A program made the position numbers and the translations under genes. Shown in pieces: positions 5,600-63,939 of a stretch of 64,000 nt of DNA. The notes under the pieces were generated by a model, which had not been told where the DNA came from, ran no database searches, and was given only the letters and a program-made list of their open reading frames with translations. Where the stretch lies: contig NC_087080.1 of assembly GCF_026151205.1 (NCBI RefSeq), positions 15,323,337-15,387,336 of the forward strand, in the 5' to 3' direction. Source of the stretch: Bolinopsis microptera (taxonomy: Eukaryota; Ctenophora; Tentaculata; Lobata; Bolinopsidae). Each line of letters begins with the position of its first letter. The first letter of the stretch is position 1.

Positions 5600-7794
5600 A
5601 TGTCTGATGTAGATCAGATTACTCAAACAGAAGAAGATGATGATGTACAGGAAAAAAGAGAGGAGATGCCCAAACACCTCTTGAAAGACAAGCACACCAA
5701 GTTTTTTAAACAGATGCTTAATCTCCTGCCACAAGCTTATCAGAGTCATGACTCATCACGTTTAACTTTGCTTTACTTTTCTCTCAGTGGTAAGTTGCTA
5801 GTGTACCTCACTTGAGTTCTTTATCAACTTAAATAATCTACCGTTGTCTGTTGTTTCTGATTTTCCCGCTTTTTAATGTATGTTATCAAATATTTGTAAA
5901 TCAATCTGAAATATTTTTCAGCATTGGATCTGATTGGGGCAATTGATGACATCAATGACAAGAGAAAGGGAGAACTTGTAGCTTGGATTTACTCACTTCA
6001 AATAAAGCCTGATGATAAGCATGGCTATTCTAGATGTGGATTTTATGGTAAGTAATAATTGTAAGTGAAACATATTTCAATCATCAAATCAATTCAAGAA
6101 TACTCACATTAACATCTGCATCATCATAACTTCTAAAAAGAGTCTTCCTTATTCCTACAATATCACAGCTGTGAACATTTCACAGTCTTCGTAAAATAAA
6201 AACAAATACATTTTGACACATTTACCCCACATTTTTATAAAAATTGAAAGAAATACAATTTCAAGAAATATTTAAGAAATATTTACTCTCTTTGTCTTGG
6301 CCACACAAGGTTTATAATGCAAATAATTTACTTGACTCCCTTCCCAGAAGTTGCCATCAAAATAAAACACATTTCACTATTGCTCCAGAACAGTTAGTAT
6401 TTGAATCAACTCGTTTGTCATTAAATTTACTTCTTAAATTATAGAGCATGTTTATCACTTGTATTATCTTCAGTATTTCAGCTACAGATTCCCTACCCGA
6501 ATCAGTTGACGCTAATTACGGACACATAGCTATGACTTACGTTGCTTTGTGCTCTCTAATAATTCTTGGAGATGACTTATCAGGCATTGACAGGTTAGAA
6601 AAATAGATTCTTAAACTAAAACTCATTTCTTCTGGTAGAATTGTTTTTAATTCATGTAACTTTTATGATTTAAAAAACATATTGCATCAGTGTAAACTGT
6701 ATCTGATCTAAACTGAACGTTTGTAATTCATAGGGATGCCATTGTACAAGGACTCAAAACCTTACAACTGGACAGCGGCTCTTATCAATGTATCTCCTTT
6801 GGGACAGAATCAGATGCGAGATTTGTCTATTGCGCTGCTTGCATTAGTTACTTTTTGAACGTAAGTTGTTTAAAAACTTACAATTGTAATGCTTTCCTTG
6901 AAGAGTCTATCTGAGATAGATACCATATTCAAATGTTAATTGTTAATCTTGTTTTAATTAGTTAAACATGAGGTCTAATAAAGATCCACTTCAGGACTGG
7001 AGGGGGATGGACGTGGAGAAGGCAGCAAATTTCCTCTTCTCAATTCAGTCCTACGAGGGAGGATTCGCTCAAAACCTTGGCAGAGAATCACACGGCGGCT
7101 CCACCTTCTGTGCACTCGCTGCTTTACAATTAATGGGGAAACTAGAGGACATGTCAGAAGAAAACAGGAGCCGGCTAATTTACTGGTGTCTGAACAGACA
7201 ACAGAGTGGATTTAACGGTCGCCCTAACAAACCAGTAGACACTTGCTACAGCTTCTGGTTGGGAGCAAGTCTTACTCTGCTCGGTGTCCAGGAGTTCATT
7301 AATAAGGAGTGTAACTTCTCCTTTCTTATGACTACTCAGGTAAATATTAGTGACTTTAATTTTTAAGCTTTGACAATAGGTACTCTGTTTGCAAGTCAGA
7401 AATTCTTCACAGAGTTGTTAGTATAATTTATAATTTCCACGCATTTATTTTCTGCTGCTTGTCAGTTGCAGTAAAATTTTATGTGCTATAGATATAAATT
7501 TACTCACTCTCTAGGCGATCTTCGAAATAAATGTACTCTACACTTGAACAAGAATTAGACCTTTATCGACCTGACACTTCATGTCTCAAACTTGATAGAA
7601 TGTTAATGAGCTTTACCCTCCAGGATCGCTACATGGGTGGGTTCAGTAAATGGCCAGGCTACCTCCCCGACCCACTACACAGCTACTTTGGAATTGCTGG
7701 AATGTTTGTTATCTCGGGTGAGGTTGAGGTCCATCCTGCCCTTAACATCAGTATGAGGGCTTACCGGAACTGGCAATCTCTGTGTACCTCTTAG
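5600..7794 (+). CDS. PGGT1B: Geranylgeranyltransferase type I, beta subunit
   Basis: Six exons: 5600-5789, 5922-6047, 6482-6593, 6734-6860, 6962-7339 and 7624-7794. All junctions are GT-AG and in phase, giving 367 residues, close to the family length. The enzyme pairs with the FNTA alpha subunit in the cytosol and attaches geranylgeranyl to CaaX proteins such as Rho-family GTPases. The prenyltransferase alpha/alpha-barrel repeats are recognisable, for example RESHGGSTFC at 226-235 and GRPNKPVDTCYSFW near 271-284. The zinc ligands expected for the family are present: D278, C280 (PVDTC) and H330 (DPLHSYFG). For exon 3 the second of two nearby AGs (exon start 6482) keeps the frame; for exon 6 the acceptor at 7622-7623 is required, because an earlier AG near 7514 leads to a stop. 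An AG lies nine bases before the ATG, so the true 5' end may be spliced. AATAAA signals follow at about 8378-8395 and 8437. I see no defect. Confidence 0.95.
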
Positions 7795-10367: not shown

Positions 10368-12141
10368 CGTTTCGTTTTGTTTTTATTTTGAAAATAGTTC
10401 AAAAAATTATCAACATTGTAAAAGGCTTTAAGGTTTTCGCCTCAAAATGTCAAAATAAAGGCTCTAGACGCTTTGACCGATTAAAAAGCGACGGATTGAA
10501 ATTGTATAAAATTGGCAGAATTATTGACTTTTAAAGTAGCTGGTCAAGTAAACGTTGTTAGTTGTGATATGCAGTTATATTTTATCATGCTTAAACCGTG
10601 CGCCTGCGCACTGCTTATCAATATTCGCTTTTAACTTCTAAGCACTTCAGGGGACCAAATAATTTACATTATGCCAGGCTGGAATTTCACTTAGGGCAGC
10701 TGAGCTATCTTTCAGTCGAAAAATCAGGATATGCATTATCATTATGCACTCATCGGCCGTAGAGGACGATAGTCGAAACTTGAAAACTCGATAATTTTAA
10801 CACAAATCAATGAACATGACGTGTTATCTTTAACTATGTAGCTGTGCTTGATCAACACAGCGAAGCCTCGGGCGAAGAAAGTGTGGCATAGTGCCTTAAC
10901 CGTCGCTGGCCTTAGGAACGATCCTTCGGCTTCTTGTAAAGCTCTTCCTTGAAAGTGCTGGTTTACATTGTAATGCAGGTAATGCCGAAGTAAAATAACA
11001 AAGGTGGTCGACTCATTCGATGGCCTTGTTGCGTCGCAACAAATCCTCATAAAATAAGATAAGATAAGATGTAAGTAAAGATTATTAATCAATTTAAACA
11101 GCTGATGCAAAATTTACAGAAGCGGTTCCTCTTGGTAGAAGCGACTTCATCTGGTACATTTTCGACCAGTCATGACAGCTTAATTAATTTGTACTCTAAA
11201 AAAGGTCACCTCTTCTGTCATGTTACGGCCCAGAAATATGGAATATTCTGGGTTATAACTGTTATAGTGTTATTATACGACGAATATAATACAACTAGTG
11301 TGACTAAATACTACATAATATCAATATTATATAATAATATGACATAACATGAATTATTCAGGGCCAATAACACTACTAATTTGAAATAAATAAGACAATT
11401 AATGATATTAATGTCAAACAACTAATACGAAACAACTAATATCAACTGAATATGACATAATATATATTTAAACTAATTACAACACTACAAATCTATTACA
11501 TTTATTGACAATCATGTAATGTAACGTGATGGAAATATTTTAAACGGGCATATCCTGTCCAAACCCAGGATGCACTACATGAAGAATTCGTTTTAACTTT
11601 GTTTGAAAAGCATTAATAGAATATTCTGGGCTTTCTGTTTTATTTCTTGCGAAGTCAAAGACTCATCACATGATCCCCAACAAGGAAATTTAAAACTTGA
11701 GCAGGTTCAATGTTTTACTATACAAGTAAGCATTACTTAATTCTTCTTAAGTTGTCTTAAGATGCTCGTTAAAACTGAGAACTTGCTCAGTCACACTAGT
11801 TGCTTCTTTGTCGTCGGTTTTTCTTTTAGATTCAAATCTCAATTCCTTTTAAAACGAAATCACAGTTAAGGCTTTAAAGGGGCATACACCAAAACAGTGG
11901 TTAGTGCCGTCCAACCCAAATGACCTCATAGGCAGTTCAGTGACTATCTAGCCCACCGTTTCCGCACCAAAAAAAATTATTTTGAGAATACCTATTTTTG
12001 TAATCGAGCATTTCCTGGTTAATACACATAAGAAGCATATTGACGTTGGGCAACTTCAATATAGCTTGCTTTAACGTGTCTCAATTCGTATTTTTCCAAC
12101 CAGAATCGTTTCTAAGTCTTACGATCAGTCTTCTGACCATC

Positions 12142-13074
12142 GATTTGTCGTGGGTAACCCAGGGTGATAACTATTCCCCAAACGATTTGTCGTGGGTAAC
12201 CCAGGGTGATAACTATTCCACAAACGATTTGTCGTGGGTAACCCAGGGTGATAACTATTCCCCAAACGATTTGTCGTGGGTAACCCAGGGTGATAACTAT
12301 TCCCCAAACGATTTGTCGTGGGTAACCCAGGGTGATAACTATTCCCCAAACGATTTGTCGTGGGTAACCCAGGGTGATAACTATTCCACAAACGATTTGT
12401 CGTGGGTAACCACGGGTGATAACTATTCCACAAACGATTTGTCGTGGGTGACCCAGGGTGATAACTATTCCACAAACGATTTGTCGTGGGTAACCCAGGG
12501 TGATAACCATTCCACAAACGATTTGTCGTGGGTAACCCAGGGTGATAACTATTCCCCGAACGATTTGTCGTGGGTAACCACGGGTGATAACTATTCCACA
12601 AACGATTTGTCGTGGATAACCCAGGGTGATAACTATTCCACAAACGATTTGTCGTGGGTAACCCAGGGTGATAACTATTCCCCAAACGATTTGTCGTGGG
12701 TAACCCAGGGTGATAACTATTCCACAAACGATTTGTCGTGGGTAACCCAGGGTGATAACTATTCCACAAACGATTTGTCGTGGGTAACCACGGGTGATAA
12801 CTATTCCACAAACGATTTGTCGTGGGTAACCCAGGGTGATAACTATTCCCCTAACGATTTGTCGTGGGTAACCACGGGTGATAACTATTCCACAAACGAT
12901 TTGTCGTGGGTAACCCAGGGTGATAACTATTCCACAAACGATTTGTCGTGGGTAACCACGGGTGATAACTATTCCCCAAACGATTTGTCGTGGGTAACCA
13001 CGGGTGATAACTATTCCCCTAACGATTTGTCGTGGGTAACCACGGGTGATAACTATTCCACAAACGATTTGTAA
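12142..13074 (+). repeat. 42 bp minisatellite, 22 copies
   Basis: Twenty-two head-to-tail units of GATTTGTCGTGGGTAACCCA followed by GGGTGATAAC and a TATTCC(C/A)CAAAC block, each exactly 42 bp. Variation is limited to a few positions (CAG/ACG, CCC/ACA, TAT/CAT, GTA/ATA). Because the unit is a multiple of three and has no stop, long frames are open on both strands; the plus frame reads DLSWVTQGDNYSPN repeatedly. That frame is only opened upstream by a TTG, runs into a stop just after the array, and the variants change amino acids freely. I therefore treat it as a satellite and not a gene. Confidence 0.95.
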
Positions 13075-25538: not shown

Positions 25539-25649
25539 ATGTTTATGATGTGGAACGAGCAGAAGCGCCTGGAGCAAGAGCAGATGGAGAGTCACGGGAA
25601 CAGCCGACCCACCAGTCACGTGTCAGACCCTCGCACCAGTACTACCAGT
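25539..25649 (+). CDS. Alternative 5' exon A (MFMMWNEQKRLE), paralogue of 29.9 kb exon
   Basis: From the ATG at 25539 the exon reads MFMMWNEQKRLEQEQMESHG and ends DPRTSTTS at a consensus GTAAGT, 37 codons in phase 0. The start is preceded by GCAGCAGTC; the paralogous exon at 29910 has the same CAGTC before its ATG, then MLAMMWNEAKHDLE and an ending EPRASTST. Conservation of the start, the charged Q/E-rich helix and the S/T-rich end, together with a donor in both, supports real coding. A CAG two bases before the ATG in both could be a splice acceptor of an untranslated leader. The donor is the first of about 41 copies in the following minisatellite. No domain is recognised. It may splice to the shared exon at 43188 or to a small exon at 28369. 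Confidence 0.6.
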
Positions 25650-28096
25650 GTAAGTAGCGGGGAGGCGGTTCTTGTACACTTGTCAGATCCTCGCACCAGT
25701 ACTACCAGTGTAAGTAGCGGGGAGGCGGTTCTGATCCTCGCACCAGCACAACCAGTGTAAGTAGCGGGGAGGCGGTTCTGATCCTCGCACCAGCACAACC
25801 AGTGTAAGTAGCGGGGAGGCGGTTCTGATCCTCGCACCAGCACAACCAGTGTAAGTAGCGGGGAGGCGGTTCTGATCCTCGCACCAGTACTACCAGTGTA
25901 AGTAGCGGGGAGGCGGTTCTTGTACACTTGTCAGATCCTCGCACCAGTACTACCAGTGTAAGTAGCGGGGAGGCGGTTCTTGTACACTTGTCAGACCCTC
26001 GCACCAGTACTACCAGTGTAAGTAGCGGGGAGGCGGTTCTTGTACACTTGTCAGACCCTCGCACCAGTACTACCAGTGTAAGTAGCGGGGAGGCGGTTCT
26101 TGTACTCGTGTCAGACCCTCGCACCAGTACTACCAGTGTAAGTAGCGGGGAGGCGGTTCTTGTACACTTGTCAGATCCTCGCACCAGTACTACCAGTGTA
26201 AGTAGCGGGGAGGCGGTTCTTGTACACGTGTCAGATCCTCGCACCAGTACTACCAGTGTAAGTAGCGGGGAGGCGGTTCTTGTACACGTGTCTGATCCTC
26301 GCACCAGTACTACCAGTGTAAGTAGCGGGGAGGCGGTTCTTGTACACGTGTCTGATCCTCGCACCAGTACTACCAGTGTAAGTAGCGGGGAGGCGGTTCT
26401 TGTACACGTGTCAGACCCTCGCACCAGTACTACCAGTGTAAGTAGCGGGGAGGCGGTTCTTGTACACTTGTCAGACCCTCGCACCAGTACTACCAGTGTA
26501 AGTAGCGGGGAGGCGGTTCTTGTACTCGTGTCTGATCCTCGCACCAGTACTACCAGTGTAAGTAGCGGGGAGGCGGTTCTTGTACACGTGTCTGATCCTC
26601 GCACCAGTACTACCAGTGTAAGTAGCGGGGAGGCGGTTCTTGTACACGTGTCTGATCCTCGCACCAGTACTACCAGTGTAAGTAGCGGGGAGGCGGTTCT
26701 GATCCTCGCACCAGTACTACCAGTGTAAGTAGCGGGGAGGCGGTTCTTGTACTCGTGTCAGACCCTCGCACCAGTACTACCAGTGTAAGTAGCGGGGAGG
26801 CGGTTCTTGTACACTTGTCAGACCCTCGCACCAGTACTACCAGTGTAAGTAGCGGGGAGGCGGTTCTTGTACTCGTGTCTGATCCTCGCACCAGTACTAC
26901 CAGTGTAAGTAGCGGGGAGGCGGTTCTTGTACACGTGTCTGATCCTCGCACCAGTACTACCAGTGTAAGTAGCGGGGAGGCGGTTCTTGTACACTTGTCA
27001 GACCCTCGCACCAGTACTACCAGTGTAAGTAGCGGGGAGGCGGTTCTTGTACACGTGTCTGATCCTCGCACCAGTACTACCAGTGTAAGTAGCGGGGAGG
27101 CGGTTCTGATCCTCGCACCAGTACTACCAGTGTAAGTAGCGGGGAGGCGGTTCTTGTACACGTGTCTGATCCTCGCACCAGTACTACCAGTGTAAGTAGC
27201 GGGGAGGCGGTTCTTGTACACGTGTCTGATCCTCGCACCAGTACTACCAGTGTAAGTAGCGGGGAGGCGGTTCTGATCCTCGCACCAGTACTACCAGTGT
27301 AAGTAGCGGGGAGGCGGTTCTTGTACACTTGTCAGACCCTCGCACCAGTACTACCAGTGTAAGTAGCGGGGAGGCGGTTCTTGTACACGTGTCTGATCCT
27401 CGCACCAGTACTACCAGTGTAAGTAGCGGGGAGGCGGTTCTTGTACACTTGTCAGACCCTCGCACCAGTACTACCAGTGTAAGTAGCGGGGAGGCGGTTC
27501 TTGTACACGTGTCTGATCCTCGCACCAGTACTACCAGTGTAAGTAGCGGGGAGGCGGTTCTTGTACACTTGTCAGATCCTCGCACCAGTACTACCAGTGT
27601 AAGTAGCGGGGAGGCGGTTCTTGTACTCGTGGGGAGGTAATGCACATTCAGCGTTAGTACAGCAGTCGACAACCGACGGGGAGGCAGTTCTTGTACACTT
27701 GTCAGACCCTCGCACCAGTACTACCAGTGTAAGTAGCAGGGAGGCGGTTCTTGTACACTTGTCAGACCCTCGCACCAGTACTACCAGTTTAAGTAGCAGG
27801 GAGGCGGTTCTGATCCTCGCACCAGTACTACCAGTGTAAGTAGCGGGGATGCGGTTCTTGTACACTTGTCAGACCCTCGCACCAGTACTACCAGTGTAAG
27901 TAGCGGGGAGGCGGTTCTTGTACACTTGTCAGATCCTCGCACCAGTACTACCAGTGTAAGTAGCGGGGAGGCGGTTCTTGTACACGTGTCTGATCCTCGC
28001 ACCAGTACTACCAGTGTAAGTAGCGGGGAGGCAGTTCTTGTACTCGTGGGGAGGTAATGCACATTCAGCGTTAGTACAGCAGTCGACAACCGACAG
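25621..28096 (+). repeat. 60 bp minisatellite containing repeated splice donors (~41 units)
   Basis: About 41 units of a 60 bp repeat, in frame translating as SDPRTSTTSVSSGEAVLVHL, with several shortened 47 bp units (for example near 25736-25875, 26702, 27109, 27276, 27813). The first unit overlaps the end of exon A. Almost every unit contains ACCAGTGTAAGTAGCGGGG, that is, the exon's own consensus donor; one unit near 27789 has TTTAAGT and loses it. The 47 bp units remove 13 bp and shift the frame, so the long open frames break up. Two copies of a different ~60 bp junction containing GGGGAGGTAATGCACATTCA and AGTACAGCAGTCGACAACCG end array segments near 27680 and 28096, a segmental duplication. 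Confidence 0.95.
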
Positions 28097-29909: not shown

Positions 29910-30053
29910 ATGTTGGCGATGATGTGGAACGAAGCGAAGCATGATCTGGAGCGGAAACAACAGGAACAAAAACAGGCAGAGCTGGAGGAAAGCGGCAGAA
30001 GAAATCGGAATGTCAGTGTGTTGTCTAAGGAACCTCGGGCCAGCACCAGTACC
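29910..30053 (+). CDS. Alternative 5' exon B (MLAMMWNEAKHDLE), paralogue of exon A
   Basis: From the ATG at 29910 the exon encodes 48 residues: MLAMMWNEAKHDLERKQQEQ, a charged segment with KQAELEESGRRNRN, then VSVLSKEPRASTST, ending in phase 0 at GTTAGT. It matches exon A in the bases before the ATG, in MMWNE-K--LE, and in the PR-STST ending. The glutamine/glutamate-rich part is likely a helix or short coiled coil. Here the donor region is single copy; the equivalent of the minisatellite unit (GGGGAGGTGG after the donor) is present once, so this exon shows the state before expansion. An alternative is that the frame reads on to a stop at 30116, but paralogy ends at the donor. Confidence 0.6.
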
Positions 30054-31191: not shown

Positions 31192-31378
31192 TGCTAAGCC
31201 TCTTGGTTAGCGAACGCCTTTGGTTATAAAGTGTGTTTTTGGAGGACGTGGCCCATGTCATTAAGTCTATTAAGTACTCAGAGTTAACGTGCAGTTTTCT
31301 TGTTGAATCGTTTGTTGGTTCGTTTTGTTCGGTGTGGCGGAGAACAAGATAGTTGATCTGGAGGCTGTTTTGCTGGAG

Positions 31379-31522
31379 ATGGAGACGTTCAAATCTGAAG
31401 TTTTCAAGTCTCCGATCATCGGCTACAGTCCGCTACCTGACTCTGATATTGAGGTAACTGAGGCAACGGAGTTAAGGACATTAAGACGTGAAATAGTTGG
31501 GGGACGAATATGTGGACTGCAG
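31379..31522 (+). CDS. Candidate alternative 5' exon C (METFKSEVF)
   Basis: From the ATG at 31379 the exon reads METFKSEVFKSPIIGYSPLP, DSDIEVTEATELRTLRREIV and GGRICGLQ, 48 codons, then a good donor GTACGT in phase 0. Upstream the frame stays open and protein-like (NKIVDLEAVLLE) back to a TGA at 31304, with no in-frame ATG. So either 31379 is the start or there is an acceptor such as GTGGCGGAG at about 31342. The composition is helix-forming and charged. No family is recognised. The phase allows joining to the exon at 43188. Confidence 0.5.
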
Positions 31523-33418
31523 GTACGTATATAATATGGTTATAAAACAATGAAGTAAAACCTTATCAGACGATTGTAAACGACATGACCTCAACAAACA
31601 AACTTACAGACTAACCAAACTTTAAACCTCTTTTAAAATAACGTAAAAGCCTCTCTTTAAGGGTCGCCTGAAATCTGAAATTGGGGTTCATAGGACCTGT
31701 CAGCCTATCCGGTGTACGTGCTTTGACCTTCAAAAGAAATAGGGGAAAGATCAGAGTAATGGCTTTTGTCTGTAAATGTGTATTTAATAGGGGTTTACCG
31801 ATATTATCGATCTTTATAATGAACAATTATGAGTATTTTTGCCCTGTCTCCTATGTATTTACCATTGAAAACAGTATTGTACTGATATACATTTGTTGAG
31901 GCTAACCCGCGCTAAACGCACATCAATTGTATGCATGAGCCACACCAAGTGTTATTATGTATTCCCTGCGTCTTTGATATGTCGGGTTAGCGACCATTGT
32001 CGTCCAGTATTAATCTATTGTTAATGACAATTGATTTGTGCTGCTTGAAGTGACCAAAAACCTGCCTAGTCATGAGAGGTAGCCGTTTCTCATTCAGCTG
32101 ATTTAGATTGTATTGCGCAGCAAGGACCGGTCATGGTAATGAATCGTGGGAGCCGGAGCATGGCCGGTACTCGTCTCATTACCGTCCAATTAGTGTTTCA
32201 ATACACCCAGCCAATGTTCTTTATTCGTTAGCAATCAACATGATCTGCACTGGGCGCCCAGTTCGTATTTGCAGATTTTAGCTCCTTTGTTTTGTTTTGA
32301 GCGGTTAAAATTTTACACAGAAACCTCTTTTGAATCGTGGAAGTATAGCTCGACGATTTTATTGAAATAAAAAAGAAGACACGACGTCACAACCATCTCT
32401 CTCAGACGAGAGAATTAATCTCTTCATTATCATCTTAATAATAGGGTATAATTTTGGAATGCCACATAATTCTATGTACAATGCTGTGATGAAAGGCATA
32501 TCGCGGAATACATTCCTAAGTATCTTAAGAACACGTCGCAGTCGTGATACCGATCCATTGTATTGATAACATTGGTTGATATTTAGAGAATTTATGGATA
32601 TCACTTTTAGCCTTTTGAACGGAATTGCTTGACTTACTGGATGTAATACTAATAGGCTATCAAAAATAGGTCTGCACTCTCTAATCATTTAATGCCTTGC
32701 CATTTATGTTACCAATTTGCGCGACAGTCTTCCTTTTTTAACGATGAGATAATTTAATTTTGTCAGCCGTTGTCTGTTGATCACATGATTCTTGCTAATG
32801 GTATTGGATGCTTTGCTATCTAAAAGTGAGAAATTGGCTTTTTCATTAGTATCGCTTGTTGTAATATTTTGTTGCTCCGATTGGTTTTACTTTTAGGCGT
32901 ATTCATTGCAAAAAATTGATTTCTAGTTGTAATCCTTCGATTTTTGAAGGGGTTTGATGGGACGGAAAGCGATCTATACTGCTGGAGAATCTCAATTGAA
33001 GATCGAGGATTGGGATTAGCATACTGGACAACTACGAGATTTTAGCTTCCGTCCGATTAATTAATTCGTGATAGAATTAATAAGTCGGATAGTGCGAAAA
33101 AAGCCATTAATCACGTACCAACTCCAGATCCATTACACTGTTGCTGAAAAACCAAGCAAAGCGAAAGCAATTAACATTTTCATCGCTCCATTTAAAGTTA
33201 ATCCCGGATACATCCCAGATAAAATTAGCATTCTGTCGGGGTAATCGTTTTGTAGCATCTTCTTGCTTCAGCAGGCGGGTGATACAGATTAGTACTTATT
33301 TGCTATTGGAATTTCAACCTTTTGTTTGGCTGGATCCCTTTCTCATTTCAGTCTGAGTCTGGTTGTCCCTCTCGACCAGAGTTGTAAAACTTCAAGACTC
33401 ACTGTTTTCTTCTGATTA
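31523..33418. other. No supported exon
   Basis: AT-rich DNA. A minus-strand ATG frame of 109 codons (32359-32688) is followed by an AATAAA but has no recognisable motif or splice support. Confidence 0.4.
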
Positions 33419-34243
33419 ATGTCTCAGAAACCATTACAGAGGCCCCCTTTGAACGCTAGCCTAACCCCTCTGACCTGTCTCGAAGTGCTGCCCAACCTGA
33501 GCCCCTCTCAAGTGACCAGAGAATTCCAAAACCTCAAGTTAGCCGACAACAACTTCACTATCGAGTACAAACGTAAAATCCTGACCAAGCATTTTGATCT
33601 GAGGATCACCAGTGAATTTACTGGATCCACTTTCAGTAACATCTGGAACTTGTTGAACAGAAACCAGACGAGCCTAGCGTGCTTGGAAGGTCAGATTCGT
33701 GATGTCAATATCAATGTCCAGAACTTGCGAGGCCAGGTTAAAAATGCGAATATGATAAATTCAGCTGTAACACCCACTGAGGAAATAAAGCGTAATGTGG
33801 TCCCAAGTTCAGCCGCGTCAACCATTGGCCATCTGTCTTCCGACGAAGAGACCTTTAAGATGGTACCTCAAGTGACGCGTCAAGACACAGACGAAGGATT
33901 TCCATCTGTTTTCCACTCCGCTGATTCTAGCAAGCAGTGCGATAATGTCAAGCCTGTAAAAACCAATAGACACTTTCACGTTGCACCTCTTAAAACCAAT
34001 CGACAGAAGCACAGCGAACAAAATGTGATGAATTGGAAGACATCCCAAAAAAAGACGCTTCGTGAATCTAGCGGGGAACGGAGGAAGATAACGAGGCAGG
34101 CTAATTTACGGCAGGTTGCAGGGGATAAACGCAAAATTCTTCTTCGCGGGACCATACCTAGTACTTCACCTAGGGTGAGAGAAAACCATCACAAGCAAAA
34201 CTCAGGTCGGCCAAGCAGCCGCTGGGGTATCTTCAACATCTTT
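33419..34243 (+). CDS. Large alternative 5' exon D, unknown protein (MSQKPLQRPP)
   Basis: This is the longest single non-repeat frame in the window. The ATG at 33419 is preceded in frame by a TGA at 33413, so it is a genuine start for this frame. The 275 codons run to a phase-0 consensus donor GTAAGT; without splicing it would end four codons later (VSDL, stop at 34256-34258). The first ~110 residues look globular (LSPSQVTREFQNLKL, FDLRITSEFTGSTFSNIWNL), then a possible coiled segment (LACLEGQIRDVNINVQNLRG). The C-terminal ~130 residues are basic and probably disordered, with many K/R, S and T (SGERRKITRQANLRQ). I do not recognise the family. The phase fits the shared RING-like exons; a stand-alone short gene is the alternative. 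Confidence 0.6.
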
Positions 34244-38970: not shown

Positions 38971-39553
38971 AGAGCCGTAAAATAACCGTTTTATTAACTT
39001 AAATGTTAGTAATGCGTGTAAATAGCCGTAAGATAACCGTTTTATTAACTTAAATGTTAGTAATGCGTGTAAATAGCCGTAAGATAACCGTTTTATTAAC
39101 TTAAATGTTAGTAATGCGTGTAAATAGCCGTAAGATAACCGTTTTATTAACTTAAATGTTAGTAATGCGTGTAAATAGCCGTAAGATAACCGTTTTATTA
39201 ACTTAAATGTTAGTAATGCGTGTAAATAGCCGTAAAATAACCGTTTTATTAACTTAAATGTTAGTAATGCGTGTAAATAGCCGTAAAATAACCGTTTTAT
39301 TAACTTAAATGTTAGTAATGCGTGTAAATAGCCGTAAGATAACCGTTTTATTAACTTATAATGTTAGTAATGCGTGTAAATAGCCGTAAGATAACCGTTT
39401 TATTAACTTATAATGTTAGTAATGCGTGTAAATAGCCGTAAGATAACCGTTTTATTAACTTAAATGTTAGTAATGCGTGTAAATAGCCGTAAAATAACCG
39501 TTTTATTAACTTAAATGTTAGTAATGCGTGTAAATAGCCGTAAGATAACCGTT
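38971..39553 (+). repeat. 51 bp minisatellite, ~11 copies
   Basis: Units contain AGCCGTAAGATAACCGTTTT and ATTAACTTAAATGTTAGTAA, then TGCGTGTAAAT. Variants are AAAATAA/AAGATAA and a one-base insertion (TTATAATG) in two adjacent units near 39357 and 39409. Non-coding. Confidence 0.95.
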
Positions 39554-41462
39554 TCATCATTTCCATGCAATAGTTGTCGCGAGACTGTTTCAAGACCTGT
39601 AGAATTGTAGAACTGATCACGAGACAACCTCAAGACGTGTATATCCGCCGAATCGGGCCCCATGATCATGCTTCTTGGTGGCTGGGTACGGCGGACTTCC
39701 ACCTTCTTCCACGGTAGAAGTAACGGTAGAAAGCATGAGTTGAGGAAATATGCGGACGATCTGAGGGTAATGGTGTGGAATTTGTACTGATGTTTGAGTG
39801 TAAACTGCCGTGTGAATAAATATGTTATATATCTTTTTTTGATGGTTTGTTTTCTGGGTGAATCCTCTCTTTTTGAAGATCGCTTTAAATTTGGATCCTT
39901 CTTGATCTTCTTTTAACCATGTTTTAGGCGAACTGGAAACATGTTTGTTATAAATATATTTATTATTACTCGTGTTTGTAAACATTTCATATGTTTATAA
40001 ACTGTTCAATGTCTCGTTTGCTGTGCGTTTTCCTCTCTGTCATGTGAACGCTGTTCTCTTTCTGCCATCTGCGGTTTAACCGACCCAAATGATCAATCAC
40101 CACAGATAACCACATACCAATCAAACGATTATCATCATTGCTAATCAAACTAATAGCATTGTCTTAGCCTCTGCTCTGTGACCATCAAGTAATAAGCAGC
40201 TGTCGGCCGTAGTCGCATCCCGGCCGCGTTTTAATGCGATCATAACATTGAGGTGAAGTTGGGTGATGTCATGTCACGTGGTTTGCCGTTAATCTGTCAT
40301 ATCTCGTGATGGGTGCTGACACAATTTATTATTATTAAGTTAAATATTATGATCTTTCAGACACAGGGAAAACGACCCTGGTTTTGAATCATTTAGAAAT
40401 ATTACAATTAGTTTTACAAATACTTTTGTTACAGTAATTATGGAATATTACAATATGTTTTGTCAAGAACAAGTTGAAACAATGTTAATAGCATCAACTT
40501 TAGAAAACTATTCAATCCACTGAAAAACTGATCTAAGATATTGAAGGTATTTATCTCCTGAACTACTGTTCAGTAGAAGGTAATAAAACGACTTTACCTT
40601 AAGCATATTCGACAGTAACGTTATTAAAGGCGTTTAAACATAAGGTGGAAGTTATATAACACGAATAAGTTGTGCTCTGTGGTAGTTAAATGTTATGTTG
40701 AACAGTAGTTAGTAGTAACAGACCCACAACATCCCGGTTCTAATCTTAACTGGTCTTTAAATCTACTTAAATGTAATGTCTTAATGTCTACTTCATGCGG
40801 ACATTACATTTTAAACTGTATAAGTTAGTTAATGACAGGCTGGTAATTATCTTTACTAATACGAAAATAACTTACCAAGCAACTTCCACCGTCATAACAA
40901 TAACCACATGTAGACTCAACTCAGAATACCACAGCTAGGAAACATTCAGAGCTCCGAACATGACTCCTGCTCTGGTAATTCTACCTTTTGTTTGTTAAGT
41001 CCTCATATGATATATTCTCCTTATATTATTATATGTAATTGTAAGGAGATAGATTGTGGTACATGCGGTAGCTACTCAGTGTTACAGTGTAGTGCTCGTT
41101 CTCAGTGAGTCGCAGGTGTAACAATACAAAGTGTACTTTCAGTTTGTAAAGGGCTTATTTCTTTATTTCCGCCGTGCCATAATTTCTGGGACCAGTTGTG
41201 AATTTGCACACCTTTTATTTGTAACTGTATCCTCATTATTAAAGATACAATATACATTATATAAATTAGCACTGCCGCACCGGTTAACGTCTTATTGGTT
41301 TTTGTGGTTTGCATACTCGTTTACATACATTGTTGCCTCGTGTGGATTGTTCATTTGAAAGACTGAGGGATTCATTTGGAGATTCTGTTAAACAGAGACA
41401 AATACCTTGTGAAATACTTCACTATAAGAAGACAACTTGAAACTGAGGAAAATAAGGGGTAT
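39554..41462. other. No supported exon
   Basis: A minus-strand ATG frame of 122 codons (39617-39985) has no recognisable domain. A short ATGACTCCTGCTCTG followed by GTAATT at about 40960 could be a tiny first exon but is not supportable. Confidence 0.4.
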
Positions 41463-43187: not shown

Positions 43188-46100
43188 CGGGGGTCCTCTG
43201 AGTACTCAGACCAATCCTACAACGAGTACCAGATAGGAGAAGCCAGTCCGGACACCTCTCCAATGAACTACCGGCCCCGGTCCCTCACGCCGCCTCCTGA
43301 TCGGAGAGACTACGTGCCCCAGCCTCAGCCTCTCTCATACATCGAACTTAATAGATTACCAGGTCAGTTTTTGTGTTAATTAATTAATTATTTTGAAATA
43401 GTAGAAATAATTAATTATTTGATTAAGCATATTACATTATTAGTTAATTAATTAACCTCCAAACCCCGTGATTGGTTTTTCCTCACACCACCTCTCATCA
43501 CTCTCAAGAAATCGAATTATATATAATATTATATAATATATTTCAAGTAGATAATGACAGTGTACTCTAGTTATAATATATTATAGATTATATAGACTAT
43601 GTAGAGGTATAGAGTCTAGTTATATTAACGTTATTCATGACCTTACGGACGTATGATCCTTTACATTCATACCTAGCTTCCTTTGCATCCTACATTACAT
43701 TGTTAATAAGGAAAGCGATCAGGGCACATACATCTTCAGTTTCCTAATCCTTGAAATGGAGAGTCACCATTCAACCACCACTGTAGTCTCCTGCCAAAAT
43801 AAATGCAGAATTTTTCTCTAACTATAACATCATTTGCTGTGCGATTGAAAAAATTACATGCGGTTGTTTTTATTTTTGGGGATGGTATGAATTTTGCACG
43901 TACAAATATGTCATTGTAAACATGAAATTCCTCTTGTTAAACGCCTTGTCCGGCTATTTTCACTTAAATCAGTCAATTTACAGAGTTACAGATTTGTTTT
44001 GTAAACAAATACAAATTTAGACAAGAAAATTCCCACGATATAAGTTTTATTAAAACTCTTCATAAATAGATCACACGATTTTTCATGAAATCTGGGGAAA
44101 CTCTCCTGTGTATTAATTTGATATTATTAGTACATAAAACTTGAAGCTTTTTAATTGGAAGTTACAATCTACGAGATTTGACATTAATACATTTGGGATG
44201 TAATGTCTTAGCTGGTATTTCCCAAGCCTTCGCTCAATAATTGATTCAACTCAATGAACAAATCACAATTATTATTGAAATTAGAGATTTGATTAATGTC
44301 ACACGGTTTAACAAATTGTAATTGTTTAATCTCTAAAATCTTTTGGCAGAAATATCGTTATGTTCACTGCTGTAATATTTCCAACTATTTGTAACCGTGT
44401 CAAAAAGTTAAAACTATGTTTAGATATTACATAATCAGTCGATAATCGTTTCTGCCGAATACTGAAGATATTTGATAGGTTAACATTATTCGAACGCTTT
44501 ACGCAGAAAAACTGTTATAACTAAATAGTTTTAATCACGTTCACTCTTTTTAATTTTTTAAACTTTTTAAAACCTGAACCCACCAATTTCAACTGTAATG
44601 ACTAGACACGAGGTCCTTTAAGTACCTTTAGAGTACACTATAGTTTCATCACTCTAAATTGGCCCCTAAATGAGACAGGAGGAACTGAACGATATAAAAA
44701 CGGTCATTTTCAGTGACCACAGAAGAAAAATTAAGCTTATAACAACATTATTATCTGCCAATATTTAAAAGAGTTATTTTTCAGTGGTGAAGCTGCAAGG
44801 ACACGAGTTACACACGAAGTGTGCCTGTGAGAAACCCTGGCAGAAAGACGAAGAGGTCAGTTTTATATCCCTGGAATTTTCTGTGATTTTTTGAACTTTT
44901 TTTTTATTACTGATCGAATATATAGGAGTTTGTTCTATAATTTTAGTTTAGAATTTGTCATTTATTGCCTTATTGGCGTATATAATAAGGAAATCACTAA
45001 TCACGGATGTCTTGACATGCTGTCAATTTTTTAATACTTTTAGGTTAGGGTTCGAATTTAAAGGTATTTGGCCTCGTTCCAAACTTTCAAATTGTCAAAA
45101 GTAAAAAGATGAAACAATTTGTATATATTCAGTATTCACACTATCTCCGCACGGTTTTACTATGCCAATCAATGACAACGGACTGGGACAACCTTAATTA
45201 AGTTATTTCTGCACTAAATGTGATGTACTTAGGTACCGTAATACTACATGTATAATATAAATAATTCGATAACTCATTTAGTAATACCACATGCAAGAGA
45301 ACCTGCCTACAACACCAGAGTGGGATCCATAATACTTAATAACGGGTGATGACTAAAAAATGGGACTTTTTTCAAGGGTCTTTTTAGTGTCGATAAAACT
45401 ATTTTTGGTTCAAACCAATGAAACAGCGTTGTAAAACGGGCAATTTTGAACCAGTATGGTCAATGACAAGCGCCCATGAGCCCATTTTGATTGGTTCAGG
45501 AGGGCTTCTTTCATCAAGCTCAAAAATCCGTCTGTACAGTTGGGCCTAAAATCGTGTTGGCGCAGTCTCTTCTTTTGTGCCCTAAGGCCCATGTATGCTT
45601 GTAAGCCATATTCCGGGCATGTACATGTGTTGCCAGGACTCTAAAGAAGTCCTCTATGGGTTAAGATTGTCAAAATTTACTTTGGTCGATAACTTTTGGG
45701 ACGAAATTGGCCCTTATGGCAAATAAAGATGTGGTTTTCCCAGAAAAATACGATCTAGCCCCATCCTAACGAACCACCTTCCACCCTTTGGGGATATTTT
45801 CTTGTAGGAACAACACCTGGCAAGGCTTCAAGCACTTTGATTTTTACGTGGTACCATTATAGACCATGCTAAAGCCGATAGTTGACCTAGCCTCGATCTT
45901 TCACACGGTAAAATTTTACCCCTCAGGTGGTTTTGAGCTCAAATATCTTCTTACTGGTTTTAGCTACGCTGATGGGTGTTGAACCCTCGTCTTAAGCATA
46001 ACATTCGGCATACTCTCTGCTAAATATTTTTTGGTATGGAAGCTTTAACTACCTGTGAGGCGACTTCTGTGAACAGAGCCTTACTGTAAAGTTTTTATAG

Positions 46101-47981
46101 GACCCCTCCCCTAGTTCGAGACCATTATCGGGGACAAAGATCAACCAATTTTATCAAATGGGGGTGGAAACTGTTCGAGTATCGTTCAGAGTAACTGGTG
46201 GTTGTGGTAAAATATCAAAATTTTGTTCAGGTGGAATCTGAGGGCTAAAAAACATGTAGTCCCATTTTTTATTCATCACCCGTTAGCGACCTGTTACACT
46301 GGAAACATTCCAGCTCACTCTAAGTTTAATAAAAGGTGGAGCAGTATACTTCCGGTGTGTATAGCACGTTCACATCTCCATGACAACACGCCACACACCA
46401 TTGTTTTACATGCGTAGCTGACATGCCCCATGTACCTTTGTTTTGGAAAGAATATTGGCTTCTAAACCCTCGTGTAACTGGTACCGTGTCAAGATATATC
46501 TTTTGTAGATATCTGGGGAGATATCTGGGGAGATATCTGGGGAGATATCTGGGGAGATATCTGGGGAGATATCTGGAGAGATAGCGGGGTTTAACACAGA
46601 AGGGGTCTACATGATATGTGCATTCACTGCATACCTTATGTTATTGAAGGGTGGGCCAGTATTACCTGTCTTTACAAGTTAAAAGAGAGCTGCTTGGACC
46701 TTGCACCTGGCTGTAAACATCAAGTTTAATTCAGGCCCGCCCTGAATTTACAATTTTGGAGAAATGGACGTTTATATTAATAGTATTACTTCAGTGTGTT
46801 GAGCAACATCTGTTTACTGTACCATAGACGATATTTCACGCCCTGTAACAACGTGTTCACTTAATGACGCACCCCACAAACCACAACAATTTGACATTTG
46901 TTAGTACACTGCAGATACTGACGACACCCTAATTCGCACGGCATAAGCCGCAGTTTTACACATAAATTATGTATAATTACGTAATTGTGTGATAATAATG
47001 TGTACATTGTACATAGCATTACCAACATTCATGATATTTAACAATGTATCACCACGCCACACCCTGTACGCATGCTTGTAACAAACCACAATGGTATGCA
47101 TCGTAATATAGGAACCGAGCTGTGATCGAAGGTGTAAATTGGCAGATACTCTAGAACTCTACACACCACGTGGAGGTGTCACGTGGTTGTCACGTGGTTG
47201 TCACGTGGTTGTCACGTGGTTGCTATGTGTTAATGACAGGTGTTGTTATACTGCACGCGCCATAATAGTACGTTAGTACGTTATCAGTACTGGGGTAGAG
47301 GTTGTACGACTTGAAGTTATCAAGTCTATAATATTATCATTATAAATTAAAAACTTATCATTATATTATATTTTGCAAAACTATATTATTCTGACATAAT
47401 ATATAATGACGGTGTAAAATTCGTTAGGATATCCTTCCGGTACATTTTGATTTTCAAGGAATGAAACTGGCGAAATATTTGTATTTTCCCTGTAACGTTG
47501 ATTATAGTACGAAGGAACACTACTGCATTGTTAGCTGTCACATTATAAAGTTAAGTAGCATAACCGTGTGAACTTTACCATACTGCGAGCTACCAATAAG
47601 CTTGTACGTGTTATATAAACGTGTATTGATACTAAGTTTAACTTCTTCAAATACTCCACTGTTAGTTACAGTATTACGTAAACTCAATAATAATATTGTG
47701 ACTTAATCTTGTCGCGTGAAACCCACCATTATTACGTAAGCAATTAAAAAAACCAAACTGTAGCATGTAGCTATTGTTATATTTCTTGCATAACCACTGA
47801 CATAACCGCTTAAATAACCCTATTACTGCAGGCACTACAACTACTATGTGGACACAAGCTACACACAGCGTGCGGCTGTAAACTTATGGAGACGGGCGTG
47901 TGTCCAATCTGCAAAACGGCCGAAATCATGGACGACAAGTTGAGAGAGATCAGGATAGATTTATCTGGCTTCAACTTTTAG
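43188..47981 (+). CDS. Shared 3' exons of a putative RING-H2-like protein
   Basis: Three exons join in phase: 43188-43362, 44785-44855 and 47832-47981, with good acceptors (ATTATTTCAG, TTATTTTTCAG, TTACTGCAG) and GTCAGT donors, 131 residues to the stop. The first is acidic/proline-rich and probably disordered (RGSSEYSDQSYNEYQIGEAS, RSLTPPPDRR). The last contains LLCGHKLHTACGCKLMETG followed by VCPIC, matching the second half of a RING-H2 finger (C-x-H-x2-H-x2-C ... C-x2-C). The middle exon holds a similar LQGHELHTKCACEK, in which the first cysteine is replaced by glutamine. A canonical upstream C-x2-C pair is missing unless the C-x-C of the middle exon serves. RING proteins are usually ubiquitin ligases; whether this one is active cannot be told. 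The N-terminus must come from one or more upstream exons ending in phase 0. Confidence 0.7.
45342..46283. mobile_element. Non-autonomous element with 26 bp inverted ends and TA flanks
   Basis: The ends are inverted copies, ACGGGTGATGACTAAAAAAT then GGGACT on the left, and the same with one mismatch on the right. TA dinucleotides flank both sides (45340-45341 and 46284-46285), as expected for Tc1/mariner-type insertion. The ~940 bp interior has no transposase frame; a 60-codon frame at 45410-45592 is unremarkable. It sits inside the last intron of the RING-like gene. Confidence 0.75.
46508..46582 (+). repeat. 12 bp repeat GATATCTGGGGA, ~6 copies
   Basis: Nearly perfect head-to-tail units, in the last intron of the RING-like gene. 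Confidence 0.9.
47177..47221 (+). repeat. GTCACGTGGTT x4
   Basis: Four 11 bp units, each with a CACGTG E-box. Confidence 0.9.
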
Positions 47982-58999: not shown

Positions 59000-61900
59000 T
59001 TAAGAAAGTACCTGTCTATAAGCATTAGCCATCCGTTGAACATGACTCTGTTTATGAGTAGTAAGCGCACTAGCTGTCATGAAGGTACGCTGGCACATGT
59101 CACACGGATAGGGTTTCCTATCCAAATGATGTGCTCGTGTATTGAAAGAGAGGAGAGCATTGTGAAGGACTTCCCGCAGATGTTGCATTGGAACGGCTTT
59201 TCGTCTTGCTGGAGATTATATAGTTTAAGCGTCAAGCGAAGAAAGATGCGAGCAATTTAGTTAAAATGGAACAGAACACGGGAAGTCTGAAGAGGATTCC
59301 CCTTGACTGAAAGTACCTCGCCGTCCTAAGCTACTGTTAAAACTAATGTTATACACAATATACAGCCCGATTCTAACCTTATGAACAAGCTCGTGAATCC
59401 TAAGATGACCATGATGAACAAACTCTCTCTTGCACACTTTACACTGATATGGGCGTTGTTTGAGATGGGTACGCTTGTGTCTGCGCAAACTCTCCACCCA
59501 TGTGAAGCGTTTACCACAAACATCACAACCGTGAGGCTTCTCTCCTGTGTGGATGTACTGATGTCTCCGCAAGTTACCTGGGGGGGGGATCATTTAATGA
59601 GAGTCAACTTTACTTTGTGCTACATCGTTACTGTAGCTACTTCAGTTTGTGCTACATCGTTAGTATAGCTCTGGGATAAGTGAAAATTTAAAACTCGTAC
59701 AGCATTTACTGGTAAAGATACCTTCCCAAGGTTCACAGGATTCAGGACAAAGTATGTTGTTATCAGCTAGTGTAAATTGAACAACTAATTACAATAATCA
59801 GTTAGAATTTGATGTTACTATGCTACAACGTAACTCACCTAGATCTTTGAAACCGAAGCCACAACTGTTACAAATATAAGGCTTTTCTCCAGTGTGAACA
59901 CGTTCGTGTACCTTCAAGTTCTGCTTTTGAGTAAATCCTTTACCACAGCTATTACATTTGTAAGGTCGCTCTCCTGAAATTGATACGGTTATTGTTTCAT
60001 CAAAGTAAGAGCTTACACACTGCAGCTGTGTGATGCGGTGTAATTTGTAGTATTACTTATCCCTTCTTATTTACTGTCACATTTTAAATTATACTATAAT
60101 GTATGCAGTGTAATTCTACACTTATTTACTGCAATTTTACTACAGTATACTGTTTAGTGTTTATGTTTACTGCTTATGTCATGTAGCAAGTCCGTGCTAA
60201 GCTACGTTACTGGTTACTCCAGCTGTTTGAATGCTACGTCTTCCGACATAAAACAAAGTTGCAGTGTTAATTAAATATAAATTAATATTTGTGGCAAATA
60301 CTCCGCAAATATTCCTCACCAGTATGAATATAGTTGTGAACTTTGAGATGAGATATGTGCGGGAACACTCTACAACAGATCTTGCACTGATAAAACTTCT
60401 TCTTGCTTGTCTCGATGGTACTGTGGGTAGGATGTATCCTCACATTCTTGTCTATGTGCTTACAGTAACACTTCTCGTGCACCACGTAGTACCAGTATGT
60501 CTTGAAACCTTTGCCACACACCTGTTCATTTCATAGGTTATATCACAACATGTTAGGGGGTTACTTTCACATTTTGACAAAATGAGAGCTGCCAGATATG
60601 GGAATATCTAGGTTACATTCAATGATACTCAAGAGTTTGAAATAGGAAAATGACAATCAGCACAAGTACAAGTTTGGACTGACAACTTCAAAAACAACTA
60701 AAATCGGCCTTTACTTAATCAGGTTAAATCTCCGTACCTTGCACTTGAAAGGTTTATCCTCGCCGGTATGGGACATCTTGTGTACTGCCAGAGTTTGCTT
60801 GTGGTCGAAACATTTGCCACACTTTTCACATTTGTAGGTAGATTTCCCGTGGTGAGTTTCCTTGTGTTTCTGAGGAGAAATAAACTTTCAGCTCGCTTGT
60901 TTTAACCAAGTATGAAATGAGAAAACGTTGCGGTGCAACGGGGTTAAGTAAAATCCGTTCCTAAATCCAATCAAGCACAGCTACAAATTAAACAGAACAT
61001 ACCAGAGCTAGAACAGTACAAAGACAGCACAGCCAACTCTAAAACTAAACCTAATAACTAAACTAAACTTACTGTCAGCTGCTCTACTGATGCGAAGGAA
61101 ATGTTACAAAGAGCGCACTTGCTGTCCGCGGAAGTACAGTGGTAGTCTCTGTGCCGCTTCAATCTGTATGCAAATATCCAGCTTATTCATTTGTATTTGT
61201 GTCCTTATAGGGCGCAGTGAACAAGCGCATGTGCAGGGTGCCTGCACATGTGCGTCATTCAAGCACGTTGACATACACTTTACACAAACATTTGAACATT
61301 GGATCTGAATACTACATACAATACACAGTTGTTTGAACCTCAAAACATATTCAAGTAACATGAGTTAACTTGACTAGTAAGCGATACAATTTCTCTAGCC
61401 CGCAGTTTCCCGCTCACAAGAATATATTCCAGCAAGTAGTATAGACGGGCATCTCCAACGGTAAAGGTTGCAAAATAAAATATATACCTAAGTTCTATAA
61501 TATTTCCTTGTGTTTGACATTCAACGTACCTGTCATCATTGAGGAACTTCTTATCACAAGCAGGGCACTGTTTGTACCCGCTGTGATACTTCTCATGTTC
61601 CTTAAATGCAGACTGGGAGTTGAAGACCTTGCTGCAGTCGCCGCACTTGTACGCGAACAAGCTGTGTTTCTCCTTCTCGTGGGCATTTAGTAGCTCGATG
61701 GTAGCACAGAAGGTGTCACAGACCACACAGTTACAGCCCTGTAACAGTTACACAGTTTGTTATTAGAAGGTCACTAAGCAAAAGGAATGTTCATTTGAGT
61801 CAGGAGAGATTTATTGTTACTTAATATTCACAGAGACAATGCTAGAGTTGGCAGTAGTTGCTTTGGAAAATGTCCAACCTTAGTCATCACGAGATTTTGA

Positions 61901-63939
61901 AGGCGATATAATAGGACAAATAATAAGACAAATAATAAGACAAATAATAAGACAAATAATAAGACAAATAATAAGACAAATAATAAGACAAAAGACACGC
62001 GTCAGAATCATTACACTCAATCAGATCATGGAAATATGAGCAATAAATAAAGAATGTACGTGCCAGCCAAGAAAAGTAACCAAACTCACGTTCTGGTTGT
62101 CTACAAAGTGGGTAGCAGAATGAGTTTCCATCTCCAGGACTCCCTCAAAGGTCAGCTCGCACACTTCACAGGTCAGTTCACCCTGTAGATCCTCCTGTTC
62201 TACTGTCTCCTCCTTTATTGCTACCTGTAATAAACCTTGTAAGCTCAGTTACTTAACCACTGAGACTTGTACCACTTGTAGTACTAGTGACTGTATGTAT
62301 ACTGTATAGTCACACAGTATATTTATATTTGGCGGTACCATACGAAGAGCAACAAGCCTGCCCGGATTTAAACATTGTAAACTAGTTTCTTTTGTGAAAC
62401 ACTCCTTAGAGTTAATAGTATGTCGTCATGCTTGTTCGTTAACAGTTAACAGTTGGCATTTGTCAGCAGTATACGAGAGTGTATAGAACAATACACTTTA
62501 CAATCGCATCTAACGTGATGATGACAACTGTGGTGCCATGTAAAGCTTTTCAGATTCTAGTTATTTATCTAGACAGCGCTAACAGCAACATTGTCTGCTG
62601 TCTAGTGAGGAACAGGTATGAAATGTAGACTTCATAATTGTGAATAAGCCGTTAAAATATAAGGATAACTTATAACATATATATTATATATATTATTATT
62701 ATGTTATTAGCATGTATAAGGTTAATAAGCGTAATTACAAAATTAATTGTACTTACGGGGGGAGTCTCCACGACTACATCCTCTTTCAGTACAGTTGGTT
62801 GTTGTGAGGTACTGGGAGCTGGAGTCTGGGGAGAGAGCGGTGCAGCAGTGGCTGGAGTCGGGGGAGTTGCTGGGGTGGCTGGGGTGGTTTGGGCAGTGGC
62901 TCTGGAAGTGTTGTGAGGTTTTAGGCTCGCTTTACCGTACTTTCCTCGAATCTTTGTTGCCAGAGTGGGACGAAGACGTTTCTTCAACAAAGAGTCTGGG
63001 GAATAGGTTAGAATGAGGAACGATCAACAACTTGTAATTTGTCTATGCGAATCAACTGTAAAACAACTTTACTGTATGAGAGCATTAATAATTATTCAGT
63101 GGAATTAAAAAATTCTAACGTTCAAACTTACTAGGTTTGAAAGGAGTAGCAGGACTTTTAGTAGGTTTGACAGCAGTTGTGGATGCTCCCTTCTCACTAC
63201 TCTCGAACTCAAAGCTCGGATCATGAGCATAAGCATCAGGCTCTGTCTTGATAGTGACTCTAGGAGGAGAGTATCTCTTTCTAGCTCCGTCCGCAGATGG
63301 TGGCTGATTAGGTGGGTTGGGAGGTAACGGGAAAGTAAGGTCGCCTCCATTCTTCCTCATCCTCTCCTCAAACTCAAATATTTCCTCCCACACTTTGTCC
63401 TTGTTGTCCTCTTGTTCGAAGTGGAAGGTTGACTTGGCTGACTCTTGGAGACGGTCCGTGTCGATCGTGATCTTCTCTTTCTCAGGAACAGTACTGCTAG
63501 GTGAAATCATTGGATCCTCTGCTAGGTCGTTGAGAGTGGACACATCTTCGTCTCCTGATATTGACAGATTGTCGTCATCTCTGTAGTCGCCCTTACCACA
63601 CTCCATCCTCTGATGAGTACGGAGATCTTCCGTCGTCTCGAACTTGTACTGACAACTCGAACACCTTAAATGAAAACAGTATTTGTCAAAAAGGTAGAGA
63701 ACTTGGAAAATATTTACTATCCATAATGTATTATGTTATAACATGTAGATTGAGATAGAATGATCGCAATGCTAACCTGTTGTGTGCTTTTTCAAGATGG
63801 CTGACAAGCTGATATCGGTACTTGAACTTCTGCTTGCAACAAGGACAATCATTATTAGGATCAATAATATCTTCCTCTTCCTCTTCACAATCAGAGTTAT
63901 TAGGGTCTATAATTGAGCTCGTCTCAAAGTGGAAATCAT
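59000..63939 (-). CDS. Large C2H2 zinc-finger protein, 5' end outside window, with frameshift
   Basis: Eleven exons in transcription order: 63939-63777, 63664-63132, 62995-62757, 62224-62090, 61738-61530, 61163-61073, 60869-60738, 60521-60320, 59973-59839, 59577-59378 and 59208-59000. Every junction is GT-AG and keeps phase, about 749 codons. I count about sixteen fingers, beginning [16 protein letters not shown] (C2HC type) and CEVCELTF and ending CNICGKSF and CDMCQRTF. Between the early fingers lies a long disordered stretch: acidic (SISGDEDVS), then a T/P/A-rich block. TGEKP-type linkers join the later fingers. Several fingers are split by introns between the cysteine and histidine pairs. 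A probable nuclear DNA-binding transcription factor; targets unknown. In the last exon the frame breaks near 59128-59131: one base appears missing inside HEHI-H of the next-to-last finger. Taken literally, the product stops at 59077 and loses the final finger. Exon 1 and the start codon lie beyond 64000. Confidence 0.88.
61921..61992 (+). repeat. 12 bp repeat TAATAAGACAAA, ~6 copies
   Basis: Perfect tandem units in an intron of the zinc-finger gene. Confidence 0.9.

Follow-up and report, generated by a model that had tools for sequence, protein, structure and literature searches.

Two human genes carry minisatellites at the boundary between an exon and its splice donor. In ABCA7, as described in the text available to us (PMC5954066), the VNTR of intron 18 is built of a 25-bp unit whose first two bases are the GT of the exon 18 donor, with 12 units in the smallest allele and 23.7 in the reference; the donor situated one unit further on is also used, which retains one unit and breaks the frame, and this use is independent of VNTR length, while the length itself alters the skipping of exon 19. 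In CBS, a 31-bp VNTR is found at exon 13/intron 13, c.1444_1467+7(16_21), in 16 to 21 copies (accessible parts of PMC2630376, PMC1395315 and PMC5188458). The name of the CBS repeat implies a unit that straddles the boundary, with the last 24 nucleotides of the exon and the first 7 of the intron, and the length of this VNTR is reported to lower enzyme activity (PMC5188458, citing Lievers 2001).

Here we describe a comparable array in the ctenophore Bolinopsis microptera, located in a stretch of 64,000 nucleotides of genomic DNA (referred to below as the window). As in ABCA7, the tandem repeat lies directly at the end of an exon, here a candidate one called exon A, with a donor in each unit; as in CBS, the unit covers sequence on both sides of the exon-intron junction. 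Both hallmarks of the human arrays, namely near-identical tandem units at the 3' end of the exon and a donor repeated in each of them, are thus found, and we infer, granting that exon A is indeed an exon, that this array would be of the same kind. The differences are nonetheless substantial. The ABCA7 repeat follows an internal exon and its unit holds no exon codons, and the CBS unit, at 31 bp, is not divisible by three and PMC5188458 describes it as non-coding, whereas the array described here follows a candidate first exon, known from sequence alone, and is made of a 60-bp unit (47 bp in its short form) with exon codons. A bulged register of pairing with U1 and a different branch of the animals further distinguish it. 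No such donor array in an invertebrate was found in a narrow search of the open literature. As far as their available text goes, DDX3Y/MSY2 (PMC3039753) has a start-site minisatellite and not a donor array, the Schistosoma SmPoMuc genes (PMC2576457) repeat whole units of about 1 kb with an exon, and the description of earthworm metallothionein (PMC12783039) concerns first-intron minisatellites, among which we found no donor array. The Bolinopsis array is, in our opinion, probably a minisatellite of largely neutral character, which originated where an alternative first coding exon ends on its 3' side and came to extend over that boundary, a reading which we adopt with some reserve.

Structure and growth of the array

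The array and its parts are located as follows.

25629-28043, plus strand: minisatellite of 41 units (31 of 60 bp, 8 of 47 bp and 2 running into the flank)
25689-25876, plus strand: run of four 47-bp units (units 2-5), each 13 bp short, with the frame shifted
27630-27677, plus strand: internal copy of the array's 3' flank, 48 bp identical to 28047-28094
28047-28094, plus strand: outer copy of the 3' flank, matching 27630-27677

Units were counted by means of the anchor CCTCGCACCAG, which occurs 41 times between 25629 and 27995. The spacing between anchors is 60 bp in 31 cases and 47 bp in eight, to which are added pieces of 130 and 106 bp, where array units continue into the unique sequence of the 3' flank. 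The whole, about 2.4 kb in length, was also reported by TRF. The 47-bp units are numbers 2-5, 19, 26, 29 and 37 and miss 13 bp of the 60-bp unit. Most of the units are identical to one another, and the initial annotation, which spoke of some forty units nearly all carrying GTAAGT, described them well: the motif is intact in 40 of the 41, the exception being the TTAAGT of the unit at 27768.

Growth has probably proceeded in part by multi-unit blocks, since the 48-bp 3' flank recurs inside the array. Unit types are well mixed, neighbouring units being hardly more alike than in shuffles (of 40 neighbours, 6 are identical, where 4.7 would be expected). A DNA search of the genome (264,652,675 bases, 232 contigs), which skips very common words and scores the best candidates only, found the array nowhere else, all of the 24 matches listed being within the array itself.

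The window holds other tandem repeats. A second long minisatellite (12141-13072, 42 bp x 22) is open in one plus-strand frame, as a 14-residue repeat in a frame of 356 codons (12004-13071), and in one minus-strand frame; its Pfam matches, to DCDC1 and a viral nsp2, appear to be artefacts of the repeat. The presumed first intron that holds the donor array also contains, at 38973-39554, an array of 51 bp x 11.4, whose unit includes GTAAGA and for which only weak pairing with U1 is predicted (-4.6).

Candidate exons and the downstream gene

Six candidate exons could be delineated around and downstream of the array (a slash marks the cut).

25539-25649, plus strand: candidate exon A, from ATG to the first donor, 37 open codons, ending in phase 0, similar to exon B
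29910-30053, plus strand: candidate exon B, a diverged single-copy relative of A, with a phase-0 end at GTTAGT (30054)
31307-31522, plus strand: candidate exon C, an open frame whose start is not fixed, ending CAG/GTACGT (donor at 31523) in phase 0
33419-34243, plus strand: candidate exon D, 275 codons from ATG to GTAAGT at 34244, phase 0
43188-43362, plus strand: candidate internal exon, starting in phase 0 and ending CCAG/GTCAGT
47832-47978, plus strand: candidate last exon, encoding the C-terminal half of a RING finger

The first array unit overlaps the final codons of the open frame that starts at the ATG at 25539. Exons A and B have start context and protein in common: their local protein alignment scores 60, a value reached by none of 2000 shuffles (maximum 58), and BLASTP of these two sequences alone gives an E value of 7e-6. 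Past the donor, the similarity is weak (matched in 10 of 1000 shuffles). The view of exon B as a single-copy paralogue of exon A, put forward in the initial annotation, is thereby upheld as regards their relationship; the copy is nevertheless a diverged one and has GTTAGT, not GTAAGT, at the place homologous to the donor of A. Because this GTTAGT is weak, and because GTA AGT is also a pair of codons for Val and Ser, the homology of A and B is in itself no proof of a donor.

The reading phases bear on the repeat unit, which had been said to contain an exon end together with a donor. A cut at the GTAAGT of unit 1 leaves phase 0, as do the ends of B, C and D; this is also the phase in which the exon at 43188 starts, and all four joins are open, which makes the exon end and the donor plausible. 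With exons A to D, a single gene may have as many as four alternative starts. A donor shared by the outer flank of A and by B (GGGGAG/GT) was considered as well and is not favoured, its phases of 2 and 1 (counted by hand in the single-copy frame) being different from that of 43188. In another ctenophore, Hormiphora, leaders are trans-spliced onto many mRNAs according to the available text of PMC8527503; by analogy, the 5' end of exon A may not mark a start at a promoter.

The candidate last exon matches zf-RING_2 with an E value of 6.4e-4 and 20.4 bits, below the Pfam cut-off of 27.3, and PDB RING ligases with E values from 0.0049. An exon for the first half of the RING was searched for and not found, and the gene model is therefore incomplete and to be taken as a sketch. 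Protein searches of the genome returned only the query itself for exon A (E <= 0.001) and for exon B, the RING exon and the exon at 43188 (E <= 1); since the A query missed B and the B query missed A, equally diverged relatives would escape such searches. The first 126 residues of exon D likewise had only a self-match at E <= 0.1; the 12 further matches were weak, the best of them at E 0.18, and lay in unrelated frames. No Pfam family was found in any of the six pieces into which the read-through plus-strand frames of 31.3-61.0 kb were taken (E <= 0.05), but such long read-throughs are insensitive, because the RING half, visible in a single ORF, was missed too.

As to the surroundings, exons of a prenyltransferase alpha-alpha toroid protein lie at 6962-7791 (Prenyltrans, E 1.1e-43 and 4.2e-7), and C2H2 zinc-finger frames are found on the minus strand at 59264-61747, where 59264-59593 and 61343-61747 are over the Pfam cut-offs; at 63118-63735 there is a weak hit only. 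Rfam at gathering scores and ARAGORN found nothing within the window. In the genome as a whole, the iGluR glutamate-binding family has 32 matches at E <= 0.001; of these, 22 lie in open frames of 400-990 codons and are apparently intron-poor genes. Among solved structures, one glutamate-receptor frame of this genome comes closest to ML032222a, a receptor name that stands for Mnemiopsis leidyi, and the best genomic match to 112 residues of that chain shows 81% identity, as would be expected of a ctenophore that is probably other than Mnemiopsis.

Donor sequence and predicted pairing with U1

The donor of the first unit has a distinctive context.

25650-25655, plus strand: donor 1, GTAAGT, in frame, preceded by CAGT and in the bulged U1 register

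CAGT is found ahead of unit position 22 in 41 of 41 units. The duplex predicted for CAG-U-GUAAGU and U1 (AUACUUACCUG) has an energy of -10.2 kcal/mol and leaves a single base bulged beside the cut, and the same U1 5' end (on the reverse strand, CAGGTAAGTAT) is present in the three U1 loci read out of the 10 U1 matches listed in the genome. The array site is hence predicted to pair stably, in a bulged register, with the U1 of its own host. By the same calculation, the donor of exon C reaches -10.7, that of exon D -6.2 and that of exon B -4.4, as compared with -14.0 for the consensus without a bulge. Outside the array, a U1 pairing as good as that of the repeat site is predicted for 12 of 3815 GTs, at 6 distinct places, and only 0.6% of the 60-bp windows hold such a site; among five further arrays, taken from the TRF rows for the window and treated alike, the best value is -6.6. 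The array donor appears less striking when scored by a plain 9-base weight matrix, composed from general knowledge and penalising T at position -1: 138 of the window's 4110 GTs, a count that takes in the array copies themselves, reach or exceed its score of 6.35, and the donor is only moderate on this scale because its base -1 is T. Bulge registers have been described for 5' splice sites in general and are reportedly associated with alternative donor choice (PMC9311317, available text). The site modelled here would likewise have one bulged base by the cut, and differs from such sites in its arrangement, with some forty copies predicted in a row.

The GTAAGT of the units shows no extra conservation. 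Changes affect 1 of its 246 cells and 10 of the 1558 cells in the other 38 shared columns (Fisher p = 1.0), a comparison that draws on one allele with few changes in all and is weak in both directions. These figures give no sign of a functional donor array under selection, as donor bases are not conserved above the rest of the unit. The initial annotation had itself said that its proposal would be undermined if donors beyond the first unit were never used and GTAAGT were no better conserved than its surroundings; the latter half of that statement describes what is observed.

This lack of extra conservation also speaks for a reading in which the array is unconnected with splicing, GTAAGT being the Val-Ser codons of a chance or decayed frame in plain intergenic or intronic DNA. 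The T at base -1 points the same way, and so does exon B, whose GTTAGT is likewise read through as Val-Ser in its frame. Such an explanation would nonetheless leave to coincidence the agreement in phase of A, B, C, D and 43188, the likeness of A and B in start context and protein, and the presence in the unit of a predicted U1 site that ranks among the strongest of the window, of a quality held by so few 60-bp windows elsewhere. We consider it unlikely, though deserving of serious attention.

The density of predicted U1 sites invites another explanation, namely that the forty bulged sites are bound and left uncut in the first intron, as a landing strip for U1 snRNP that would guard a long transcript against premature polyadenylation or weaken exon A relative to B-D, with a strength set by copy number. 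Forty sites of -10.2 kcal/mol within 2.4 kb, against 6 places in the remaining window, would suit this role, as would the 14 AATAAA on the sense strand between 25.6 and 43.2 kb (a count made without a control) and the association of bulge registers with alternative donor choice reported in the available text of PMC9311317. The binding of U1 is however a prediction, and the six donor bases bear no sign of selection over the rest of the unit, so that we hold this role to be improbable. A more elaborate form of the idea, in which a copy-number-variable array of about 40 bulged sites behind one of four first exons acts as a U1 sponge that keeps U1 on the nascent RNA, guards a first intron of about 17 kb against early polyadenylation and biases first-exon use, would have repeat number tune the choice of isoform and not the repeat content; it is a speculation to which we give little credence.

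Reading frame through the array and usable donors

Two further donors are relevant to the frame.

25710-25715, plus strand: donor 2, GTAAGT, in frame, phase 0, adding 20 residues
25757-25762, plus strand: donor 3, GTAAGT, phase 2, whose TAA at 25758-25760 is the stop for a frame read on from the ATG at 25539

When each position is joined to 43188, in a test that starts from the ATG at 25539 only, positions 1 and 2 of the 41 are open, position 3 stops past the junction and the remaining 38 hold the stop at 25758. The protein range of this allele is consequently 0 or 1 extra copy of 20 residues. These results bear out the earlier observations that the frame from the first unit closes at 25760, the in-frame TAA being at 25758-25760, and that 47-bp units shift the frame, there being eight of them, 13 bp short, the first as early as unit 2. 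They contradict, for this allele, the proposal built on them, according to which a transcript could use whichever of some forty donors and so include 0 to n copies, since only the first two positions join openly.

The 60-bp unit is open in its plus-strand coding frame and also in two minus-strand frames, so that little can be concluded from its openness. Eight frame-shifting units, beginning with unit 2, argue against coding selection on the repeats. A coding minisatellite with variable protein repeats, of the mucin-like kind, was rejected for the same reasons: the frame is not kept open, with 47-bp units from unit 2 onwards and the stop at 25758. Acceptor-like sequences are also present within the array: 18 of the 31 60-bp units (21 by a looser pattern, which takes in other pieces too) have a CAG at bases 56-58 after a pyrimidine-rich stretch such as TTCTTGTACACTTGTCAG, which is gone from the 47-bp units along with the 13-bp deletion. 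Most of them score 4.8-6.1 and hence do not count as poor sites, given that the acceptor of 43188 has 5.3 and that of the last exon 6.8. From a donor to the next array acceptor there are only 37 nt, and the piece between measures 23 nt and shifts the frame. Splicing within the array, including splices that skip units, is possible on paper and is not favoured.

The early stop could itself have a function if splicing preferred one of the last donors of the array: exon A would then include most of the repeats, and its transcript would be a decay target that dampens the gene. The competing donors are identical and the stop precedes 38 of the 41, and a larger number of repeats in the human CBS VNTR reportedly goes with lower enzyme activity (PMC5188458, citing Lievers 2001). 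Such a poison exon end would however require a first exon of more than 2 kb, and in ABCA7 the use of the second donor is constant with VNTR length, no use beyond the second unit being described in the available text (PMC5954066); we regard it as very unlikely. A generator of isoforms tunable in length, in which the choice of donor would set the number of 20-residue repeats, could invoke the 40 donors, a 60-bp length that is a multiple of three and a coding frame of the unit without a stop, but is contradicted for this allele by the 47 bp of unit 2 and the 38 of 41 positions behind the stop at 25758, and is scarcely credible.

Origin and significance of the array

A largely neutral minisatellite at the end of an alternative first exon thus remains our preferred explanation. 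A segment comprising the 21 last bases of the exon, the donor and the first 39 or so bases of the intron would have been duplicated in tandem, after which slippage or unequal exchange, at times copying several units as a block, would have raised the copy number. Productive splicing would use the donor of unit 1 and perhaps, as a minor alternative adding one 20-residue copy, that of unit 2, and units 3 to 41 would be intronic; any use of donors 3-41 would yield an mRNA with the stop at 25758 or one past the junction, presumably a target of nonsense-mediated decay. The uniformity of GTAAGT would stem from recent homogenisation of the whole unit. We infer each of these elements, from the transcription of exon A, the use of its donor and the joining of the exon to the mode of array growth and the decay. 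A neutral satellite was the option named last in the initial annotation and is the one that fits best, given the frame-shifting units and a GTAAGT conserved no better than its neighbours. Neutrality is argued here from the DNA sequence only, and the ABCA7 and CBS arrays both reportedly matter for their genes, so that precedent offers no guarantee of it.

These observations do not support the array as a means of producing proteins of graded length. If exon A is transcribed, the locus would be a natural multiplied-donor construct, with about forty near-identical 5' splice sites in competition, in a ctenophore. It would then allow a direct test of how the spliceosome chooses among identical donors and of the effect of unused U1 sites on polyadenylation, and would extend to a distant animal a genomic accident known from the human disease-linked genes ABCA7 and CBS.
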